DNA from: Promethearchaeota archaeon
Lineage (GTDB): Archaea; Asgardarchaeota; Lokiarchaeia; Sigynarchaeales; SOKP01
Direction of reading: 5' to 3'
DNA: 28,915 nt
NCBI GenBank assembly: GCA_019058515.1
Contig: JAHPYY010000086.1
Location: 1 to 28,915 of the forward strand
In this document: positions 17,040 to 28,915 of the stretch, piece by piece
How positions within the stretch are numbered: position 1 is the first letter of the stretch
Layout: every line of letters begins with the position of its first letter
Notes under the pieces: generated by a model
Seen by the model: the letters and a program-made list of their open reading frames with translations, nothing else
Databases searched by the model: none
What the model was told of the DNA's origin: nothing
Made by a program: the position numbers and the translations under genes

Positions 17040-18035
17040 TTAAGATCTTTTTTCTTCCTTCGATCCGAACATAAATTTGTGGAACTCATCGTCTTCTTTT
17101 TCTATGTTAAAATATCTCTCAAGTTTTTGTCGGAAATCATCCTGATAATACTTCATTTGCTCTAAAACCTTATCAACTGACACTACGAGTTTCTCAATTG
17201 GAGTTTTTTTGAGATTTTCGACTAATTCTTCCAAGGATTTTAAGTTAAGATTAAACGACTCTTGAATTTTCATTTTAATATTTTCAATATTCTCTAATTT
17301 ATCCAAAATTACTGAAGGTTTAGGACCAGGAACTTCTATGGGTTCAACTACCTTTCTAACTATATCTGGGGTATTTAGTTTTTGAATAGAAAGAGTTTCA
17401 ATATCTTCTAAATTTATCAATGCGCTTTTTAACTGTTCTTCGGACTTCCCAATCGATTGTAAAAACTTTGAGGCTAATCCGCTTAGTTGAATATCTTCAG
17501 AATCATTTTCAGTTCTTTCTAAATAGCTATAAACTAAAAGATCAAACGCCTTGTCTACGAAATTTCTTGTTTTGGCTGAAATTAAGAGAATTGGCAATTC
17601 GGGTAATTTAAGCTTCTGAAGAATTGTTTTTAATTCACCTTTATTTTCAATTAAATCTAATTTATTACCCACAATAAACGTTAGACACTCGTTTGAATTC
17701 TCTTGAAGCTTTCTTAAGTACACATCTTGGAGGTTTTTAATTGTTTCTTTCGGATTCGATAAATCAAACATTAAAAACGCTGCATCGTTATTAGAGAAAA
17801 AGACCGGGTTTAGTGGGTTAAAGCTTCTTTGCCCTCCGATGTCCCACGCGTTAATTCTTACAAAAAATTCAGTACCATTAATCGGGAAATCTTGTTTTAT
17901 TATATTGGAGCCTATAGTTGGCATGTATCGCTCTGGAATCTCTTTGTCAATCATAGAATATACTAAGGATGTTTTTCCTACGCCCCCGTCCCCAAGAATA
18001 ACTAATTTCAGGTTGATTTGATTTACTACGGACAT
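17040..18035 (-). CDS. Ras/Rab-like small GTPase with long C-terminal extension
   Basis: The 331-residue protein has a complete Ras-superfamily G domain (about 8-175): P-loop GDGGVGKTS (15-23), switch I threonine T40 in YMPTIG, switch II WDIGGQ (64-69), NKLD (124-127) and SAK (153-155). The P-loop is Rab-like, whereas the Gly-Gly-Gln switch II is as in Arf, Rag and many archaeal GTPases. The extension (about 176-331) is mostly helical, with heptad-like segments such as LENIENIKMKIQESFNLNLKSL. There is no C-terminal cysteine for prenylation and no N-terminal myristoylation glycine, so membrane attachment would need a partner. It leads an operon with the coiled-coil gene. Such GTPases are abundant in Asgard archaea; the function of this one is unknown. 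Confidence 0.95.
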   Translation of the reverse strand: MSVVNQINLKLVILGDGGVGKTSLVYSMIDKEIPERYMPTIGSNIIKQDFPINGTEFFVRINAWDIGGQRSFNPLNPVFFSNNDAAFLMFDLSNPKETIKNLQDVYLRKLQENSNECLTFIVGNKLDLIENKGELKTILQKLKLPELPILLISAKTRNFVDKAFDLLVYSYLERTENDSEDIQLSGLASKFLQSIGKSEEQLKSALINLEDIETLSIQKLNTPDIVRKVVEPIEVPGPKPSVILDKLENIENIKMKIQESFNLNLKSLEELVENLKKTPIEKLVVSVDKVLEQMKYYQDDFRQKLERYFNIEKEDDEFHKFMFGSKEEKRS

Positions 18036-19800: not shown

Positions 19801-21354
19801 TTAAAATTTAGCTTCTTGTTTTATAAAAAAATCAGCAGCTAACTCTAAGTCATCGTAATTAAGCTCACGTTGAAGCGAATTTTTTAGCTCGTTAATATAC
19901 AACTCACACAACTCTTCACTTAGCTTACTTCCTCTTTCTTCTATTACTTGCATCAGTAATTTTACAATTCCATGGATTTTCTTCATTTCCTCAAAATTAG
20001 CTTCGTTTACTTCGAACTTTGCCTTTTTATCGGCATCAGAACCTGTTTTAAATACATTAGATGGTTCCTGGCCTTGTTTCTTCTTTATATTAGCAGGAAT
20101 CGACTGAATTTTTTTGATTTCAGATTTTTCTTTATAATAGTGGTTTAAAAGGTTTTTGTTAATTTTAAAATCTGATGGTCGAAGCTTACCGGAAAAAGCA
20201 TTTTTTTCCTTTAAAATTGGCAATTTTTCGGTTTTTACACCGTTTTTAGGTAAGGTCTTTACAGAAACTTGAGTTGTAAACGTTCTTTTTGTTGGTGGTT
20301 TAAATTTACGCTTTCGGTCGAATTTTTTTTTTCGTTCGACTTGTTTTTCCACTTTTTGTTGGAGTAACTTAACTTTTTCTTCAAATTTCTGAATATACGA
20401 ATAATCCTGATATTCGTTGCATATAAAGATGAGATCTTTGTATCTGTGCATTGCTTCTACGAGTTTTTTCTCTGATTCAAGATGTTCAGCTTCGTTTAGT
20501 AATCCTTCGAAGTTTTCTGGTAACCTTCTTTTTAATCCGAGAGAATTTCGTAGGATTTGATAAGCATTTGATCTCGCCTTTGGACTAGTTAGAGATAATT
20601 TAGCAAATTCGGCGTTATTCAATTCGTTTGAAATTTTTTTGATATCATCTTCACTCACTAAATCAATCTTATTTGCTATCAAAACAAACCTCGAAAATCG
20701 CCCTTCTTTTTTCTCGAAATTAAGAAAATGATTTATTACTTTTAAGTTATAATTCGAAGCGTCGAAAATAAATATGATTAAATCCGCTCCGCCTAAAAAT
20801 TTACTCCATAAAAGAGAAAAATTATCCTTGAGCTGAAAGTCCCAAAGATCAAAACTAAGATTTTCGATTGAAAGTTCGGATATTCGAGCAAAATTAATTA
20901 ATGACCTCTCTTCCCCCGTCTTTAACATATTGTAAAGCGTGGTTTTACCCGAATTGACCGGACCAGCTATCGCAATTTTGGAGTGGAGTTCTTTTTGTAA
21001 ATCTTTTAAAAATTCTAAAAACTCGTCCTTATTACCACTTTCTTCTTTAACCGCTTTAGGATCGGAAAAACGCTCTTTAAACTTTACAAAAAGCGTTTTC
21101 AAGGTTTTATCCATGTAATCTATTGAATCAGTAATATCTGTTATTATCAAGAAATATAAAACTCCGCTTCCACGGTGAAAAATCTGGTAATTAGAGCCAA
21201 TTGGTTTGTGAAAGGTCTTACCAGGAATAGGATTTTCGACATAATCTTCTATGATTTTATACACATTGCTTAAATCTTCCTTAGCTAACCCTAGCGCATA
21301 AGTGTGAGAGAATACTCGCTCTCCTTTATGAAAAATATGTATTTGACGAAGCAT
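19801..21354 (-). CDS. Longin-like domain fused to a small GTPase with C-terminal helical and basic regions
   Basis: The 517-residue protein is a fusion. Residues 1-97 fit a longin-type fold: strand RQIHIFHKGERVFSHTYA, helix LSNVYKIIEDYV, strands GVLYFLIITDIT, then a helix DYMDKTLKTLFVKFKERF. Residues 125-275 are a GTPase: P-loop GPVNSGKTT (131-139), NKID (228-231), and SPK in place of SAK (257-259). Switch II reads FDLWDFQL (168-175), so the DxxG glycine is missing. Residues 282-345 are two or three helices resembling a TPR or MIT hairpin (AEHLESEKKLVEAMHRY). A long Lys/Arg-rich linker (about 340-440) and a final helical segment follow. No membrane anchor. In eukaryotes the SRP receptor pairs a longin-fold subunit with an Arf-like GTPase, so the fusion is a suggestive parallel; homology is not shown here. 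Confidence 0.85.
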   Translation of the reverse strand: MLRQIHIFHKGERVFSHTYALGLAKEDLSNVYKIIEDYVENPIPGKTFHKPIGSNYQIFHRGSGVLYFLIITDITDSIDYMDKTLKTLFVKFKERFSDPKAVKEESGNKDEFLEFLKDLQKELHSKIAIAGPVNSGKTTLYNMLKTGEERSLINFARISELSIENLSFDLWDFQLKDNFSLLWSKFLGGADLIIFIFDASNYNLKVINHFLNFEKKEGRFSRFVLIANKIDLVSEDDIKKISNELNNAEFAKLSLTSPKARSNAYQILRNSLGLKRRLPENFEGLLNEAEHLESEKKLVEAMHRYKDLIFICNEYQDYSYIQKFEEKVKLLQQKVEKQVERKKKFDRKRKFKPPTKRTFTTQVSVKTLPKNGVKTEKLPILKEKNAFSGKLRPSDFKINKNLLNHYYKEKSEIKKIQSIPANIKKKQGQEPSNVFKTGSDADKKAKFEVNEANFEEMKKIHGIVKLLMQVIEERGSKLSEELCELYINELKNSLQRELNYDDLELAADFFIKQEAKF

Positions 21355-21564: not shown

Positions 21565-22581
21565 TTGCCGTTAACTCCAAACCATATTTCACGATTTCTT
21601 AAAAATGTAAACAATGAAAAAGATGCGTCAGAGTTATTAAATTTATTAATCAAACGAGTTAACGATCTATGTTTTAACGAATGCCAAGTGGATAGAGTTT
21701 CTTGTACATTAACTCCAATGTGTTCAAGAAGATTTCTTCTTAAACTTAGAGTAAAAAACGGATTGAAAGCTGATGATTTACCAAAGTTTTGTTACAGCGT
21801 TTTGAAAGGCGTAGTTGAGCGGGATTTCAGAGGGAAAACAGTAGTTTACAAACCAAGCGATTCATTTCTTTATTTGGTCGATTTTCTTGATATATTTTTT
21901 CACGGTGACTATAGAAAGTTAAATAAGTTTATTTCGTTTAAAAACTGGGAGGACGCTATAAAGATCTTTGACGATCGAATATATAAAAGAAAAGAAAATT
22001 TTTTGTATAAGATAAGCGATAATTTCAATTACATTGTATTTCTATTTGGTGAAAGGTTGCATGTAATTCATATAAACAAAGGCTATGTCATTTGTAATGC
22101 GAATAGGGAAAACATAGATGACTTGGAACTTCTAAAGACAATTATTGAAGTATATAAAAACATTTATTTCCCAGAAGTTAAAATGGTAAAGAAACAGAAT
22201 TCTATCGAAATGACAATTCAGATAACACACGATATCATATCTAAGATTAAATTAGACAAGCAAATTGAAGGGGAATCTATCGAACTGTTCTCGGATGTAG
22301 AAATGATCCCCCATCGATTAGGTCCTACGCTTAATCCGAACCTAGACTACTTTTGGAAGAGTTTTTCAGGTGACATCGAAGCTTTAATACAATACTGTAG
22401 AGAAATTGGGTTACGATTTGATAAAAATAATAATTTGAAAATAAAATTATTAATAAGTACCACGATTAATAATAGTTTGGATAAAGCCATTCAAACTCCC
22501 TTAAGATATCGAGATTTAAGACCAATTTTGAACTTTATTAATCGCATCTACAACGAGTTTTATGTAATATGGGTAAAATAA
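21565..22581 (+). CDS. Unknown protein with N-terminal Cys motif, divergent from the longin-GTPase
   Basis: The 338-residue protein starts at TTG 21565; the frame opens at 21550 and has no ATG before residue 52. Four cysteines near the N-terminus have the spacing C36-x3-C40-x6-C47-x5-C53, suggesting a metal or Fe-S site. The remainder alternates strands and helices, without signal peptide or membrane helix. The segment 158-205 (ERLHVIHINKGYVICNANRE, then a helix LELLKTIIEVYKNIY) resembles residues 58-100 of the 197-residue protein at 24856-25449 and has the strand-strand-helix look of longin or roadblock domains. It is followed after 15 bases by the HEAT/coiled-coil gene in one operon. I recognise no named family. 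Confidence 0.78.
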   Translation: MPLTPNHISRFLKNVNNEKDASELLNLLIKRVNDLCFNECQVDRVSCTLTPMCSRRFLLKLRVKNGLKADDLPKFCYSVLKGVVERDFRGKTVVYKPSDSFLYLVDFLDIFFHGDYRKLNKFISFKNWEDAIKIFDDRIYKRKENFLYKISDNFNYIVFLFGERLHVIHINKGYVICNANRENIDDLELLKTIIEVYKNIYFPEVKMVKKQNSIEMTIQITHDIISKIKLDKQIEGESIELFSDVEMIPHRLGPTLNPNLDYFWKSFSGDIEALIQYCREIGLRFDKNNNLKIKLLISTTINNSLDKAIQTPLRYRDLRPILNFINRIYNEFYVIWVK

Positions 22582-22596: not shown

Positions 22597-23736
22597 TTGA
22601 CCGATATAAGTAGATATTCTGACCAAATGGATTTCATTAAAAATCTAGTTAATGATGGGAAAATTGACTTAGCGGTACAAAAAATTGCTGTCATTTTAAA
22701 CCAATCTCACGAAGATGAGTACTTAGCATTGCTTGAAAATATCATTGAGACTCTCTTAACCTTGCACGGAGGTCGTACCGTTATCCGCTTTCTTATTGAA
22801 AATATAGTCATTGATGTACCCTCCTTATTGGCAAACCTTTCTAAACGTGACTCTCTGTTGAGATATTCTTTTCTTTTACAGTTGAAATCAATTTGTGAAA
22901 ATGAAAGCGACCTATTTCTTCCTTTTAGTGAAGAATTATTAGAATCCGACGATCCCAATGTTAAAGAAGCGTTTTTGCAGTTACTAATCTTCATGGCAGC
23001 GGGAGAGAAGAAAATCGACGAGAAGGAATTAGTAAATCGAGTTATCTCTAAACTTGGAGATGATAAAGATTTTGTCGTAGCAAAAGCTACGCAGGCTTTA
23101 AAGGCTATGGGTAATCAGTCTCCAGATAACATTACTAAAATACTAACTAAATACTTAGAAGAACATCCCGATAGTAACGAAATCAATGAAAACCTTGATA
23201 AATTAATAAAATCAATCGTTTCGATTGACAAAATTAAGGAGATAGTTGAAGAAGAAAAAGTTTCGGACGAGGAACTAGAAAAGCCTAGAGAAGAAATTGG
23301 AGATAAAGATGTCGTAAAGAGTCAAGTGCTAATAGCTGATAAAGGTGATAGTATAGATAAATCTGATGACATTATAGAAAAAGAAATCGATTCTGCTGAA
23401 AATAAAGGAGTAGAAGAAGAAATAGTTAAAACAGAAGCAGAGATTTCTGATAAAGAAAAAGAACTTAAGAAGAAAGACTTAGAACTTAAAAAGAAGAAAT
23501 TGGAATTGGTTGAAAAAGAAAAGTTACTTGAAGAAAAAGAAATCTTAGAAAAGGAAAAAGCTTTAAAAGAAAAGGAAGAACTTCTGAAAAGAGAACAAGA
23601 ATTAGCAAAAGCAGAATTAGAATTAAAAAAGAAACACTTAGAAGAGAAAGAACAAAAAATTCGTGAAGAAGAGACGAAAAGAATTCAAGATCAGCTAGAG
23701 AAAATAGAAGATAAAGAATCAGAAGACATTGAATAA
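22597..23736 (+). CDS. HEAT-like helical protein with long charged coiled coil
   Basis: The 379-residue protein has two halves. Residues 1-210 are helical with HEAT-like periodicity, clearest in DPNVKEAFLQLLIFMAAGE and DKDFVVAKATQALKAMG. Residues about 265-379 are extremely rich in Lys and Glu (for example KKDLELKKKKLELVEKEK) and form a single long helix or coiled coil with no globular end. This is scaffold-like architecture. It starts at TTG behind GGTGA, 15 bases after the Cys-motif gene, so the two form an operon divergent from the longin-GTPase. The stop lies ten bases from the converging 333-residue gene. No catalytic motif. Partner unknown. Confidence 0.82.
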   Translation: MTDISRYSDQMDFIKNLVNDGKIDLAVQKIAVILNQSHEDEYLALLENIIETLLTLHGGRTVIRFLIENIVIDVPSLLANLSKRDSLLRYSFLLQLKSICENESDLFLPFSEELLESDDPNVKEAFLQLLIFMAAGEKKIDEKELVNRVISKLGDDKDFVVAKATQALKAMGNQSPDNITKILTKYLEEHPDSNEINENLDKLIKSIVSIDKIKEIVEEEKVSDEELEKPREEIGDKDVVKSQVLIADKGDSIDKSDDIIEKEIDSAENKGVEEEIVKTEAEISDKEKELKKKDLELKKKKLELVEKEKLLEEKEILEKEKALKEKEELLKREQELAKAELELKKKHLEEKEQKIREEETKRIQDQLEKIEDKESEDIE

Positions 23737-23746
23737 ATAAAATTAA

Positions 23747-24748
23747 TTAAAGTCTCTTGTTCTCTGTTATTGGGGTGGAATGTAGTCTTCTAACTAATTT
23801 TCTTACATCTTCTAACTTCATGGAGTCGGGAGGGAGACTAACTTGAATTTCCTTCGCAAGAAAATAGGCAGCTTCTATGTAATTTAAATCTTCTAAAAAT
23901 TCCACGATTTGAATTTTATAGTCCACACCCTCAACTCCTTGACCGTATTCGAGTAGCTTTTCCTTTAGGAGTACATCAATTTTTTGTGTTCTTTCAATGT
24001 ACTTTACTCTTTTAACTAGCTCCTTGAACGAATTAAAGATGTTATAAAGCTCTGAGCGTGCGTACTCGTCTATGTTTTTTAATACATAAAAAATAAATAA
24101 TTCTGCCTGCTCGTATCGATTCATTTTAAGTGCGATCTCAACTAACTCTAAAAGAGCTTGTTCGTAAAGGAACTTGCTTTCGATATTTGGAACGATTTTC
24201 TCGAAAATCCAATCTATTAAATTGGGTAAATTAAATTTCTCAATAATGTCAATCAGGAACTTTATTACGCTAAAGTATAATTTTGCGTTTTCCGTTTTTG
24301 TAGAAGTTAAAAAAGAAATTAAACCGTATTTTACACGTCCCATAGCGTCTTCGAAATTAATGGGTTTTTCAGCAAATTTGTAATAAGCGGATTCTAGTAT
24401 CGGTTTTAACTTTTCTTGACTTTCAAAATTATACACGAAATATTCATTCCAGATTGGACCGCTATCCTTAACGGCTTTAGCTTTTTTCACAACACTTCGC
24501 TTCACGGATGATGGTTTTGAGGTCGATGTTTTTTTCATTTGTTCTTCTAGTTCTTCCTCAGAAAGGAATTCGAGGATAATCTTGTCTTTTTCACGAGGAA
24601 CAACTAATTTAAAAAATACATCTTCATTTTCCTCAAATAAGCTTTCTCTCAAGATCTTTGGAAAGGTAATACCTGTTTTAGTTTTCTTAACAATCTCCTC
24701 GAAGAATGGATCTTGGTCAGAGGCATTTTCTATAGGTTCTTTAGCCAT
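23747..24748 (-). CDS. Helical-repeat protein with AbrB-like N-terminal hairpin
   Basis: The 333-residue protein starts with a segment (about 22-62) of the pattern TGITFPKILRESLFEENEDV followed by FFKLVVPREKDKIILEFL, which resembles a SpoVT/AbrB swapped-hairpin domain (usually a dimeric DNA-binding or protein-binding fold). A basic linker follows (KRSVVKKAKAVK). The last 230 residues are all helical, with TPR/armadillo-like pairs such as YEQALLELVEIALKMNRYEQAELFIFYVL and IVEFLEDLNYIEAAYFLAKEIQ. No membrane segment. The stop is ten bases from the HEAT/coiled-coil gene. It lies downstream of the 197-residue gene on the same strand with a 107-base gap, so cotranscription is possible. Confidence 0.78.
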   Translation of the reverse strand: MAKEPIENASDQDPFFEEIVKKTKTGITFPKILRESLFEENEDVFFKLVVPREKDKIILEFLSEEELEEQMKKTSTSKPSSVKRSVVKKAKAVKDSGPIWNEYFVYNFESQEKLKPILESAYYKFAEKPINFEDAMGRVKYGLISFLTSTKTENAKLYFSVIKFLIDIIEKFNLPNLIDWIFEKIVPNIESKFLYEQALLELVEIALKMNRYEQAELFIFYVLKNIDEYARSELYNIFNSFKELVKRVKYIERTQKIDVLLKEKLLEYGQGVEGVDYKIQIVEFLEDLNYIEAAYFLAKEIQVSLPPDSMKLEDVRKLVRRLHSTPITENKRL

Positions 24749-24855: not shown

Positions 24856-25449
24856 TTACCCTGTGATGTCCACTAACTCTTGACCCCTTACGGCGTATTT
24901 TGCGTCGATGTAAAGCAATAGCGCGTGTCCATTGTGGATATACACAATTGGTACCGGAAAAGACTCGGCTGTTTCAATGGTCCTTCTCTTTATTAAAACG
25001 GGTATAAGCTTTTCACACACTCGGCAATATACATCTACTTTAATCGTAAGATTGAGCTCTTTAATGTTTAAAAGGATATTATCTATTCTAGGTTTGAATG
25101 CTTTGAACATATTAGGCGTAACATTACCATAAGAGAATATAACATTAATATCATAAATTTCATTAAATTCCTCGTTAATTTTATTTAAAATCGCTTCAAG
25201 CAATTGAAATTGAACGTTGTTATTCGAACCGATGGAGTAAATTATGTTACCCTTACGAATATGGACAATTCGCATGTTTCCCTTATCAATATGAAAGAAG
25301 ATATTGTCTGTAGCATAAGCTTTGACAATGTTAAGATCTAACACAAAACTTTTAAACGAGCGTGGAGGCTTCCACTCCAACAAGGTTAAATCTTGGCTAC
25401 TTATGTTGATAAACTGAATGTTGGTATCAACGTTATCGTACAAGGACAT
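24856..25449 (-). CDS. Unknown 197-residue protein with possible C2H2 metal site
   Basis: Residues about 46-105 have a strand-strand-helix pattern (NMRIVHIRKGNIIYSIG, then LLEAILNKINEEFNEIY) similar to a part of the 338-residue protein at 21565-22581 and reminiscent of longin or roadblock folds. The C-terminal part has C142-x2-C145 and, 27 residues later, H172-x2-H175 in IHNGHALLLYIDAKYAVRG, which together could hold a zinc ion. There is no signal peptide or membrane helix. The ATG at 25449 has no strong ribosome site. It lies on the same strand as, and upstream of, the 333-residue gene. The family is unknown to me, although the C-terminal motif looks well conserved in style and should be searchable. 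Confidence 0.75.
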   Translation of the reverse strand: MSLYDNVDTNIQFINISSQDLTLLEWKPPRSFKSFVLDLNIVKAYATDNIFFHIDKGNMRIVHIRKGNIIYSIGSNNNVQFQLLEAILNKINEEFNEIYDINVIFSYGNVTPNMFKAFKPRIDNILLNIKELNLTIKVDVYCRVCEKLIPVLIKRRTIETAESFPVPIVYIHNGHALLLYIDAKYAVRGQELVDITG

Positions 25450-25684: not shown

Positions 25685-28600
25685 CTACGAAGTATTTTGA
25701 TTAGAGTCTTTCTTGGTAGGAGAATCGCCGTTTTCTCCAGGTGTGGAAATGTCGGTGGGACTTTCTCTTTGCTCTGGTAATTCAATTTCTTTGAGCTTTT
25801 CTTTAGCTTTCAATTTTTCTCTATCTTCTATGCTCTTTCCCACTTTGCCAAGCTCTCCCTTGAAATAAGATTCTAACGCCGCTTCTCTTGTGGTTATTTC
25901 AACTGGAGGAGCCTTTTTCTTCTTCAAGGAATTCTTAAATTTGTGAATTTTTCTTACAGAGACAGGATACTGCAGTACTCTCTGATACGCAATGAGATAC
26001 CCTCCAATTGTTATAGCGGCTCCAATACCGACAAAAGTTAAAACTTGGAAAAATAACACATTTTCGGGAGGTCTAATTGCGTTAAGCGTAAGTCTAATAC
26101 GCTCAAAATCGTAATCATCGTCAGCGTAAACCGAGATGGTTATTTGATAAGTTCCCTCAGGAACATTTGTCAACACCGCCTCAAAAACACCATCACCATC
26201 AGGATCAGTAAGTTCACCTTGACCAAAATCGGCGCTATAAGTAACTGTCACATTTTCTATGTCTCCTCCGTAATCTAGGTCGTGCAAACTTACGCTTATA
26301 GTTACCGTATCTCCCGGTAATGTGTTGATCGTCTCGTTTCCCGATTCTACTTCGATAGTTGTCCTTATACGGTTCACCTGAATCCGCAATCGAGCGGAAT
26401 ACGACTCATAATTGACTTTTTGGGCGGTTACTGTAAGAAACCTTACGCCGATATCTAAATCGGTACTATTGACTAAGACAGAATATTGTCTTAGAGTAGA
26501 ATTTTCTGTTAATGTTAGCGATAGATTCTCTCCAATGAGACTAACGGTGGCTCCAGATATAAAATTACTTGTAATTTCATCTAAATAACTTATGGTGACG
26601 TTAATTAGGCTTCTAATCGGGACCTCTATGGACTTATCGAGAGTCTTGTTGAGTTCATTGATCTCTAAGTAGAAATCAGTGGTTCTTTCGATTACATCGA
26701 TTGATACTACCAAGGAATGAGTTTCGTAATTACTTTTCGAAACTTCAATAGTTAAAAAGCTTATGCCAGTACCGAGCGTGGCAGAGTTTATCGTAATTTG
26801 ATACGCATTCTCGTAAGGGTCAATTAACGAAGACACCGAAGTTCCGTTGATGGACACAATCGCATCAGAGATAAATTCATTTAGATCTGTATCGTTGTAA
26901 ACAATCGATATAGTAATCAACTCGTTATAGGAAGTTTTGAAGGATTGCTCAACGGTTTTATCGATCCCGTTAACGAAGGTTTTAAACGTGGTGTCTCTAA
27001 TTACCACTTGAACTTTTAACACGATAGTTTGAGAGGTGTAGTTAGCTCTTATTGCGTCGATGGTTAAAAAACTTATCCCTGTACCCAGCGTCGCAGAGCT
27101 AATAGTAATTTGGTAAGTATTCCCAAATTTCTCAATTAAAGAAGATATTGCGGTTCCATTGACAGATACCACAGCGTCTGAGATAAATTCATTACGGTCT
27201 GTATCGTTATATACTACTGTTATGGTTATTAATTCGCCATAGGAAGTTTTGTAAGATTGTTCCACGGTTTTATCGATCCCGTTAACGAAGGTTTTAAATG
27301 TGGTGTCTCTAATTTCCACTTGGATTTTTATGATTATTGTTTGGGCTTCATAGTTAGTTTGTTCGGCATTGATTGTTAAATAAATAACTCCAACTCCAAG
27401 TCTGGATGAGTTTAAAATAAGCTCGTATTGATTACCTGTCTCAGTTAAATTATCATTAAATCCGATACCTTCAATAGTAACATTAGCACCTGCTATATGA
27501 GCACCAAAAATATCTTCATATAAAATAGTTATATTAATGTTATCGTTCCAGGCAACTGCTTCAGATATTCCAAGTTCTTTCTCTAGCGTTCTGTTATCTC
27601 TATCAAGGAAGATGTCTAAATAGGTTTCCTTAGAAACTACTTCTACTTTAATTGTCAGCGTTTGCGGTTCGTAATTTGCTTTCTGGGCTAAAATAGTTAA
27701 ATAATTAACCCCCCAGTTTAAATCTGTGGAATTAAGAATAATCGAATAGTTTCCAGTGTTTCCAATGGGATTAAGTTTGCAAGTGAATCCTGTTCCAGTT
27801 AAATTAACATCAGTATCAATCAAGATTGGTGGTCCAAAATCGTCTTCTCCGTAGTACACCGTAAAATTATACGAGTCCCCTATGTCTAAAGGTGTCAACT
27901 CTATTATAACATCTGTAACATCTTTAGGCTGAAAGGTTTGATTTACATAAAAAGATATATTTGTCTGCACCTGAACGATATTAATAACAATTGAAATTGA
28001 CTGTGGCTGATAGTCTGATCTTTGGGCGTAAATCGTTAAGAAATTCGAACCTTGGTTAAATCTAGAAGTATTTATGGCAACTGAATAGTTGTTAGATCCA
28101 TAGGGAAGTAAAAATTCAGATACATCCGAACCATTTATATCAACTGTAGCTCCAGAGATTGAAGAAAAATCTGATTGTCGGAAATATGTTAGATTAATAT
28201 TTAATGTTTGGTTTACAGTTATAGTATATGTTTTATCTAAAGTATAGTTCTCTCCATTAAAATACAAACTATAATTAGTCTGAATTTCATTAACAATTAC
28301 TGTAATAACACTTGACAGAGAGGAATAGTTTGCCTTTTGAGCTGAAATGGTTAAAAAGTGTACTCCAACTGGTAAATAAGTGGCTGTATAAAGGGAATAG
28401 TTATATTGATTAAGAGATTCATGTTTTTCTAATTTACCAATAATAGTTTCTCCCTTTCTTAATTGCAATTCCGCATCAAATAGAAAATCTCCAGATTTGT
28501 TATCTAAATAAAATGCGGTAACATTCAATACTTCTCCATAAGAAACCGTTACAGTATCGGATGGATTACCTTTTAATTCAATATCCATATCTGTGGTTCT

Positions 28601-28915
28601 ATTTTCAACGGTTATTAATATTTGGAGTGGATTGAAGGTGTAATTTGCTTTAGTAGCTGAAATTAGTAATGAACTTACTCCAACTCCTAACTTGGTGGTA
28701 TTTATCGTGGTAACATATTGATTTCCAAAAAGAGTTAAGATTTGGTTGATACCCGAGCCGGTGATGGTCACGTAGACACCCGTGAGGATGGCATCGGTTC
28801 TGCTATCCCTGTAGGTTACATTGATGGGTACTAATTCGTTCCACGGTCCGGTATAGGACTTAGAGCTTAGCTTGTCAGTATCGTTAATGTAGAGCATGGA
28901 CAGGTAAGTGGTTCG
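25685..28915 (-). CDS. Giant Ig-like-repeat surface protein with C-terminal membrane anchor, N-terminus beyond window
   Basis: The frame is open through the right edge: six codons (RTTYLS) precede the first ATG at 28897 and complete the start of a repeat unit, so the true start is outside. The visible 1,076 residues contain eight tandem beta-rich repeats of about 100 residues. Each has an opening RxTxFxxxxNxxxxT, a middle (I)xITVxYxD...ISGAxVxxxG, and an ending like LGVGxxFLTIxAQKANYExQ. A ninth divergent domain (PGDTVTISVSLHD) with an acidic Dx(D)GDG loop follows, then one transmembrane helix (VLTFVGIGAAITIGGYLIAY) and a charged cytosolic tail of about 95 residues. N-x-S/T sequons are very numerous, so the ectodomain is likely heavily glycosylated. 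An adhesin or S-layer-linked role is likely. Tail function unknown. Confidence 0.9.
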   Translation of the reverse strand, partial: RTTYLSMLYINDTDKLSSKSYTGPWNELVPINVTYRDSRTDAILTGVYVTITGSGINQILTLFGNQYVTTINTTKLGVGVSSLLISATKANYTFNPLQILITVENRTTDMDIELKGNPSDTVTVSYGEVLNVTAFYLDNKSGDFLFDAELQLRKGETIIGKLEKHESLNQYNYSLYTATYLPVGVHFLTISAQKANYSSLSSVITVIVNEIQTNYSLYFNGENYTLDKTYTITVNQTLNINLTYFRQSDFSSISGATVDINGSDVSEFLLPYGSNNYSVAINTSRFNQGSNFLTIYAQRSDYQPQSISIVINIVQVQTNISFYVNQTFQPKDVTDVIIELTPLDIGDSYNFTVYYGEDDFGPPILIDTDVNLTGTGFTCKLNPIGNTGNYSIILNSTDLNWGVNYLTILAQKANYEPQTLTIKVEVVSKETYLDIFLDRDNRTLEKELGISEAVAWNDNINITILYEDIFGAHIAGANVTIEGIGFNDNLTETGNQYELILNSSRLGVGVIYLTINAEQTNYEAQTIIIKIQVEIRDTTFKTFVNGIDKTVEQSYKTSYGELITITVVYNDTDRNEFISDAVVSVNGTAISSLIEKFGNTYQITISSATLGTGISFLTIDAIRANYTSQTIVLKVQVVIRDTTFKTFVNGIDKTVEQSFKTSYNELITISIVYNDTDLNEFISDAIVSINGTSVSSLIDPYENAYQITINSATLGTGISFLTIEVSKSNYETHSLVVSIDVIERTTDFYLEINELNKTLDKSIEVPIRSLINVTISYLDEITSNFISGATVSLIGENLSLTLTENSTLRQYSVLVNSTDLDIGVRFLTVTAQKVNYESYSARLRIQVNRIRTTIEVESGNETINTLPGDTVTISVSLHDLDYGGDIENVTVTYSADFGQGELTDPDGDGVFEAVLTNVPEGTYQITISVYADDDYDFERIRLTLNAIRPPENVLFFQVLTFVGIGAAITIGGYLIAYQRVLQYPVSVRKIHKFKNSLKKKKAPPVEITTREAALESYFKGELGKVGKSIEDREKLKAKEKLKEIELPEQRESPTDISTPGENGDSPTKKDSNQNTS
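26687..27310 (-). repeat. Near-identical tandem pair of 312-bp units within the Ig-repeat gene
   Basis: Units 26999-27310 and 26687-26998 both begin with codons for RDTTFKTFVNGIDKTVEQS. The DNA at the start of each is almost the same (CGGTTTTATCGATCCCGTTA at 26953 and again at 27265, exactly 312 bases apart). The other six repeats differ strongly. This is a recent in-frame duplication by unequal recombination or slippage. Confidence 0.85.

Follow-up and report, generated by a model that had tools for sequence, protein, structure and literature searches.

The window analysed here, i.e. the whole stretch of 28,915 nucleotides (contig JAHPYY010000086.1 of a Promethearchaeota archaeon), carries on its minus strand a single open reading frame that fills positions 19801-21354 exactly, stop codon included, and encodes a protein of 517 amino acids, P0001. 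Translation of the plus-strand frames of the same interval yields stop-riddled sequences, and P0001 is a genuine coding gene. A 517-residue chain with a P-loop and an NKID motif had been described in an earlier note on this DNA, and the description was borne out by the reading frame and by the motifs as re-read from the nucleotides. From its N-terminus, the protein comprises a probable longin domain starting with MLRQIHIF (residues 1-100; 21055-21354, minus strand), recognized through a chain of profile comparisons; an Arf/Ras-like G domain (residues 124-280; 20515-20985, minus); a conserved helical, weakly TPR-like stretch delimited by alignments (residues 281-335; 20350-20514, minus); a conserved tail motif, KFKPPTKRTFTTQVSVKTLP in the P0001 version, also seen in alignments (residues 350-369; 20248-20307, minus); and a conserved, helical-looking C-terminal domain (residues 455-517; 19804-19992, minus), likewise apparent from alignments, for which a PDB search found no match.

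In Pfam, residues 115-255 of P0001 match the families Arf (PF00025, E 1.7e-12) and Roc (PF08477, E 2.5e-6), and each of the two is matched by all 44 scanned members of the degenerate family defined below (E <= 0.1). The SRbeta family SRPRB is matched by 33 of these 44 at the same threshold; P0001 itself scores 20.5 bits, below the cut-off of 25, which is exceeded by two of ten members scanned singly (P0014, 25.7 bits; P0066, 28.3 bits), with Arf scoring higher in both. TPR_11 is matched in the stretch behind the G domain by two of the 44 (best E 0.026). A faint SRP-alpha_N match (0.0032) was seen in the relative P0002 at residues 307-418, outside the N-terminal domain.

In Ras-type GTPases, the switch I threonine and the DxxG glycine hold the gamma-phosphate, and a glutamine drives hydrolysis. 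The P-loop of P0001 (GPVNSGKT; 20941-20964) and its base-recognition motif NKID (20662-20673) are intact; the switch I region (20875-20901) has lost its Pro-Thr motif, and switch II, WDFQLKDNFSLLWSKF (20797-20844), bears leucine for the DxxG glycine and lysine for the glutamine (all on the minus strand). P0001 was compared with 5.8 billion proteins, scoring being confined to the 7996 candidates with the most words in common; 267 proteins, P0001 counted in, reached E <= 1e-3. Of these, 120 were listed: P0001 itself and 119 relatives, for the most part of full length, at 40-52% identity. They have the same domain layout in common, which speaks against a chance arrangement, and wherever organism names are given for the relatives they are Asgard. 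The G-domain DxxG glycine is retained in none of the 120, its column holding Leu in 116 and Ile in four (115 and four among the relatives alone), and the Asp of the motif is retained in 116. The column of the catalytic glutamine contains Lys (87 proteins), Arg (14), Asn (9), Gln (6) and others. In switch I, where the alignment is less certain than elsewhere, the proline column holds Ala in 119 of the 120 and Val in one, and the threonine column holds Thr in nine; this loss was absent from the earlier account. The P-loop lysine is kept in 117 of the listed proteins, the adjoining residue being Thr in 117 and Ser in three, and NKxD retains Asn in 115, Lys in all 120 and Asp in 116. With G-domain homologues lacking one or more motifs being classed by sequence as pseudoGTPases, the family falls into that category, and we refer to it as degenerate.

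Switch II had been read in the earlier note as two residues shorter than in related GTPases. The replacement of Gly by Leu and of Gln by Lys is real, but the shortening is not: because the alignment to the Arf HMM passes through the region ungapped, as does that to the canonical sister class introduced below, the change arose by substitution, with nothing missing. When each species was represented by a single genome, a scan returned 57 loci, of which L001-L054 are degenerate and L055-L057 have a canonical switch II and NKQD; the degenerate switch II is present in 54 of 54 degenerate loci. That the change is an artefact of sequencing or assembly is hardly conceivable, since all 119 listed relatives and all 54 degenerate loci have it in common and nothing was found in favour of an error. 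The suggestion that homologues with a normal DxxG would betray such an error gives a split outcome: the motif is normal in 120 of 120 listed proteins of the sister class, but altered in every one of the 120 listed orthologues, and evolution, not error, is therefore responsible.

The altered region is also the best preserved one of the G domain. Among 52 degenerate representatives under 80% identity drawn from the listed proteins, no other 16-residue window of this domain is as conserved as residues 171-186 (switch II), which average 0.49 bits (rank 1 of 142), with the P-loop ranking 32 of 150, NKxD 22 of 154 and switch I 67 of 149; Phe155 and Ala156 are conserved within the otherwise unremarkable switch I. 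Switch II is thus rebuilt rather than decayed, and a function different from the sensing of the gamma-phosphate keeps it strongly constrained. The same conservation, along with Lys or Arg at the glutamine position in 101 of the 120 listed proteins, might also suit an active GTPase with another catalytic arrangement, for instance with Lys acting for Gln or with a residue supplied by a partner. We hold this to be very improbable, however, given that the glycine is lost too, that no position within the switch II window varies more than that of the glutamine (1.75 bits) and that some kin, described below, are without nucleotide-binding motifs.

The earlier note further proposed that a longin domain is fused to the Arf-like G domain. 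The fusion is supported, the G-domain half by the Arf match cited above; the longin half is probable through profile comparisons, although P0001 has no Pfam longin match. The longin fold has the topology beta-beta-alpha-beta-beta-beta-alpha-alpha. The first 110 residues of P0001 are without any Pfam match, no longin match was found in ten further members scanned singly at E <= 0.5, and, of the 55 families matched by the 44 degenerate members, the 25 shown include no longin family. Pairwise hhalign comparisons, whose E-values are not database-wide, connect the domain to longins in steps: the degenerate N-terminal domain matches that of the canonical sister class at 98.7%; the canonical domain matches a third class of proteins of about 300 amino acids at 93.0% (96.1% with degenerate and canonical sequences joined); and four standalone Asgard longins, three of which exceed the Pfam cut-off, are matched by the canonical domain at 87.0% and by the 300-aa class at 97.1%. 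Compared directly, the degenerate domain reaches 55.3% with the 300-aa class and a weak 22.3% with the standalone longins; the G-domain and neighbour-family profiles that served as controls scored 0.1-4.1%. Longin-type Pfam matches occur in six of ten scanned proteins of the 300-aa class (E <= 0.1), the best being P0241 (Fuz_longin_1, 26.6 bits, cut-off 26.1), with further ones in L068 (Fuz_longin_1, 1.4e-5; Longin, 1.6e-5) and L074 (Sybindin, 3.5e-4) and none in L061 and L070. The clathrin small-chain family Clat_adaptor_s is matched by one of 31 canonical members (E 0.0014; 25 of 53 families shown). The missing Pfam matches and the weak direct comparison would be expected if the domain were another alpha/beta fold, roadblock or PAS-like. 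We consider such a fold improbable in view of the profile chain, which reaches Pfam longin families while controls stay low, and of the clathrin small-chain match in a canonical sister. The N-terminal domain is likely, although not proved, to be a longin.

The canonical sister class was collected with residues 1-330 of L056 as the query (8000 candidates scored, 563 relatives, 120 listed). All 120 listed proteins have switch I Pro-Thr, WD[F/N]AGQ and NKQD, and they include those of Promethearchaeum syntrophicum, Lokiarchaeum ossiferum and Harpocratesius; L056 itself has Ala-Thr in switch I. The canonical loci L055-L057 share the N-terminus of the degenerate form (MLRQ; MLRD in L055), and the class has the same helical stretch behind the G domain. 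In the 300-aa class, WDFAGQ or WDLAGQ is found in 119 of 120 listed proteins, the P-loop in 120, NKQD in 119 and the switch I PT pattern in 114. A tree was inferred from 57 rows and 241 columns after the P-loop, switch I, switch II, NKxD and G5 columns had been taken out, with eight 300-aa class rows (the proteins of that class read first, five of them canonical) as the outgroup. Even so, the 24 degenerate rows form one clade (support 100/100), and together with 25 canonical MLRQ rows they form another (100/99); the degenerate clade may be nested among the canonical MLRQ proteins or stand beside them (p-AU 0.19). On this tree the degenerate clade has a single origin. Because the sister class with the same N-terminal domain is canonical in all 120 listed proteins, the loss of the switch is derived, the ancestor being, in our reading, a longin fused to a normal Arf-like GTPase, as the surviving canonical sisters still are. 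Two proteins of the 300-aa class, L075 (866-1774, minus) and L077 (21-941, minus), have lost switch I and II independently, and a single origin for them and the degenerate clade was rejected (p-AU 0.0006). L072 of the same class is also odd, with a very long branch.

We scanned 227 Asgard genomes, scoring the six best first-look candidates per genome and defining the degenerate form by a score of at least 250 bits. It was found in 62 genomes, one copy each (that of G130 is split over two contigs); 17 further genomes gave other matches at E <= 1e-20 with the full gene absent, two of them being the tail-only cases below, and the draft state of the assemblies blurs loss and gaps. The canonical class (E <= 1e-80) occurs in 71 of the 227 genomes, and 56 of the 62 degenerate-bearing genomes carry both. 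A profile of the tail matches 63 genomes, once in each, namely 60 of the 62 with the degenerate form (G008 and G094 being the exceptions) and G112, G113 and G129; at that threshold the tail thus marks the degenerate clade. Named degenerate loci are labelled Lokiarchaeota or Lokiarchaeia in 54 of 54 cases, and it is to these labels that we refer as Loki-type; a few listed relatives are named Hodarchaeota or Hermodarchaeota. P0001 had been viewed as a possible forerunner of the eukaryotic longin-GTPase complexes. This reading had to be abandoned: the degenerate clade is derived on a tree whose outgroup is mostly canonical, it occupies 62 of the 227 genomes, and longin-GTPase fusions of Lokiarchaeum and MK-D1 are already on record in the consulted parts of two papers (PMC4917890, PMC10933270).

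Within the degenerate clade, the G domain can be followed from an altered switch to its complete removal. DxxG is gone in L081, with NKQD and the P-loop kept; NKxD is gone in L053, L054 and L080; and the P-loop Gly, Lys and Thr are gone in addition to NKxD in L078 and L079. In the closely related G113 and G112, the gene beside that for a conserved 338-aa neighbour (see below) encodes only 171 and 174 amino acids, respectively, counted from the first Met, and begins just before the tail motif, which it retains; tblastn with residues 1-335 found no longin or G-domain remnant between the genes. As these two genomes fall within full-length kin on a tree of the 338-aa neighbour (a quick tree of 74 rows with SH-aLRT support only; forks 90 and 100), the longin and G domains have been lost there. 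G129 was dropped as a tail-only candidate, its gene reaching the contig edge, and G111 and G151 were kept outside the tally, their contigs being short. Families that grade from an intact switch down to the removal of the domain are rare, and this one makes it possible to test what purpose the longin-GTPase pair has once the switch has disappeared. Closely downstream of the tail-only gene lies a small GTPase frame with the sequence WDCCGKK (L110, 7460-8176, plus; L114, 1022-1735, plus), which keeps DxxG and has Lys for Gln, its first possible start being about 75 bases downstream; it is placed as if a separate GTPase had replaced the lost domain.

This series bears on the proposal, made in the earlier note, of a slow or constitutively nucleotide-bound GTPase. 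Impaired hydrolysis is indeed what the switch II change would lead one to expect, and constitutive binding is possible for the clade of the window, in which P-loop and NKxD are kept. A slow or permanently GTP-loaded protein that is always 'on' toward its longin domain or effectors would agree with the near-universal retention of these two motifs among the 120 listed proteins, and with that of the DxxG Asp in 116. It nevertheless seems rather unlikely to us: with both gamma-phosphate contacts gone, and judging by the Ras-type mechanism, GTP and GDP forms should look alike, and the existence of relatives without NKxD and P-loop, or without the whole G domain, favours a structural role over a merely slow GTPase.

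The surroundings of the gene are conserved as well. Divergent from P0001 lies the gene of a Cys-rich 338-aa protein (21565-22581, plus), linked in 53 of 54 degenerate loci, and then that of a protein with HEAT repeats and a coiled coil (22597-23736, plus), linked in 50 of 54; these two counts were made with no coverage filter. In L025, the sole degenerate locus without the 338-aa link, the sequence upstream of the gene is just 343 bases long. Among all 57 loci, and with 50% coverage required, the 338-aa protein is a neighbour in 52, the HEAT protein in 47, a 333-aa protein (23747-24748, minus) in 46, a peptidase, which we take to be of the M32 type, in 44, a 197-aa longin-like protein (24856-25449, minus) in 38, a canonical Ras/Roc-like GTPase with WDIGGQ (17040-18035, minus) in 21 and a coiled-coil protein in 20. 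The cluster order is rearranged in L053 and L054 with the genes still adjacent. Three genomes depart from the linkage: about 90 kb separate the degenerate gene of G095 from the 338-aa and HEAT pair, and G096 and G098 carry their 338-aa homologue on a different contig, although a homologue of the 333-aa neighbour still adjoins the degenerate gene there. The 338-aa family occurs in 145 of the 227 Asgard genomes (E <= 1e-8), and its pairing with the HEAT protein is also found without a nearby degenerate gene (L100, L101, L103, L108, L109). Cys36, Cys40 and Cys53 of the 338-aa protein are invariant and Cys47 near-invariant in 20 rows; searches of Pfam, NCBIfam and PDB gave no noteworthy match, and the idea that it is a longin was rejected (profile comparison 0.1%). 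The 197-aa neighbour matches the standalone Asgard longins at 82.0%, and its homologue in G095 (32% identity, E 7e-36) has a Pfam Longin match of 0.0073, below the cut-off; a conserved C-terminal half with CxxC was also observed. Beyond these genes, a very long, repetitive Ig-like protein (25685-28915, minus; Big_1, 0.0036) runs off the window. The linkage of the longin-like, HEAT and Cys-rich proteins suggests that they form a complex with P0001.

The reading that we favour, with moderate confidence, is that the degenerate family represents a single-copy longin-pseudoGTPase scaffold of Loki-type Asgard archaea that does not switch. The parts that read GTP are lost and the altered region is almost unchanged among its members, so the protein probably serves as a static structural part and no longer as an on/off switch. 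With the switch I Thr and the switch II Gly replaced, and the Gln nearly always too, the nucleotide state would no longer move the switches, and the proteins of the window's clade probably retain GDP or GTP as a cofactor with a structural role. The near-invariant surface of the rebuilt switch II probably makes a contact that is never released, the likeliest counterpart being the fused longin domain or a partner from the cluster, e.g. the Cys-rich or the HEAT protein, and the tail, clade-specific and the most durable part of the protein, probably anchors P0001 to the complex. Against such a scaffold, the window's clade has retained P-loop and NKxD, as a slow GTPase would, and the cluster linkage is not universal, as the three genomes with dispersed genes demonstrate. 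It is conceivable, and we offer this tentatively, that the protein acts as a fixed hub in a multi-longin complex of Loki-type archaea that comprises the longin-pseudoGTPase, the second longin-like protein, the HEAT solenoid and the pan-Asgard Cys-rich protein, in which a longin-Arf switch was frozen as a structural joint and in some lineages later pruned to its tail. If so, archaea would provide an example of a GTPase switch that has become a lasting interface for assembly.

A longin paired with an Arf-like G domain, as in the degenerate family, is familiar from the SRP receptor, in which SRX (longin) is paired with SRbeta (Arf-like); the eukaryotic pair, however, consists of two chains with a canonical GTPase, whereas the family described here has one chain, predicted to be without a working switch. 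Closer to it, in the consulted parts of the respective papers, are the five Lokiarchaeum longins that are joined to Arf-like GTPases (PMC4917890) and the 26 of 74 GTPases combined with roadblock or longin domains in MK-D1 (PMC10933270). These fusions have the same domain pair in the same organism group, the one-chain domain order is shared, and the canonical MLRQ class with which the degenerate clade groups (100/99) is very likely among them; those accounts, as far as the parts consulted go, mention neither loss of switch I and II nor stepwise decay nor such a gene cluster. Longin-GTPase fusions in Loki are thus already published, and for the switch-less family we found no report: literature searches by titles and the starts of abstracts returned none, which is no proof of novelty. 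Pseudo-GTPases of the Ras superfamily, divided into classes I to III (PMC12722892, in part), likewise combine a G-domain fold and lost motifs with a presumed structural role, but their classes rest on binding assays, the degenerate family being placed by its sequence; unlike them, it is archaeal, is fused to a probable longin and spans the range from an intact binding site to full loss. In septins, according to the consulted part of another paper (PMC10731463), GTPase function was repeatedly lost and the G-domain interface kept or adjusted, as may be the case here, and septins thus show that a path to a fixed interface exists; building hetero-oligomers and filaments is the feature that sets septins apart.

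Asgard small GTPases serve as evidence for early membrane trafficking, and members of the degenerate family are publicly annotated as 'ADP-ribosylation factor-like' or 'Rab family GTPase'. The family probably cannot switch, so counts of working Asgard GTPases need care.

Additional domains were noticed in longin-GTPase proteins. P0157 and P0177 also have a PCI domain in precomputed Pfam annotation, and a PCI match (1.5e-5) was obtained for one of the 31 scanned canonical members. A CdvA-like coiled-coil family is matched by 14 of the 31 (E <= 0.5, best 2.8e-5), in P0210 at the C-terminus, which may hint at a link between the canonical class and archaeal division/ESCRT proteins.
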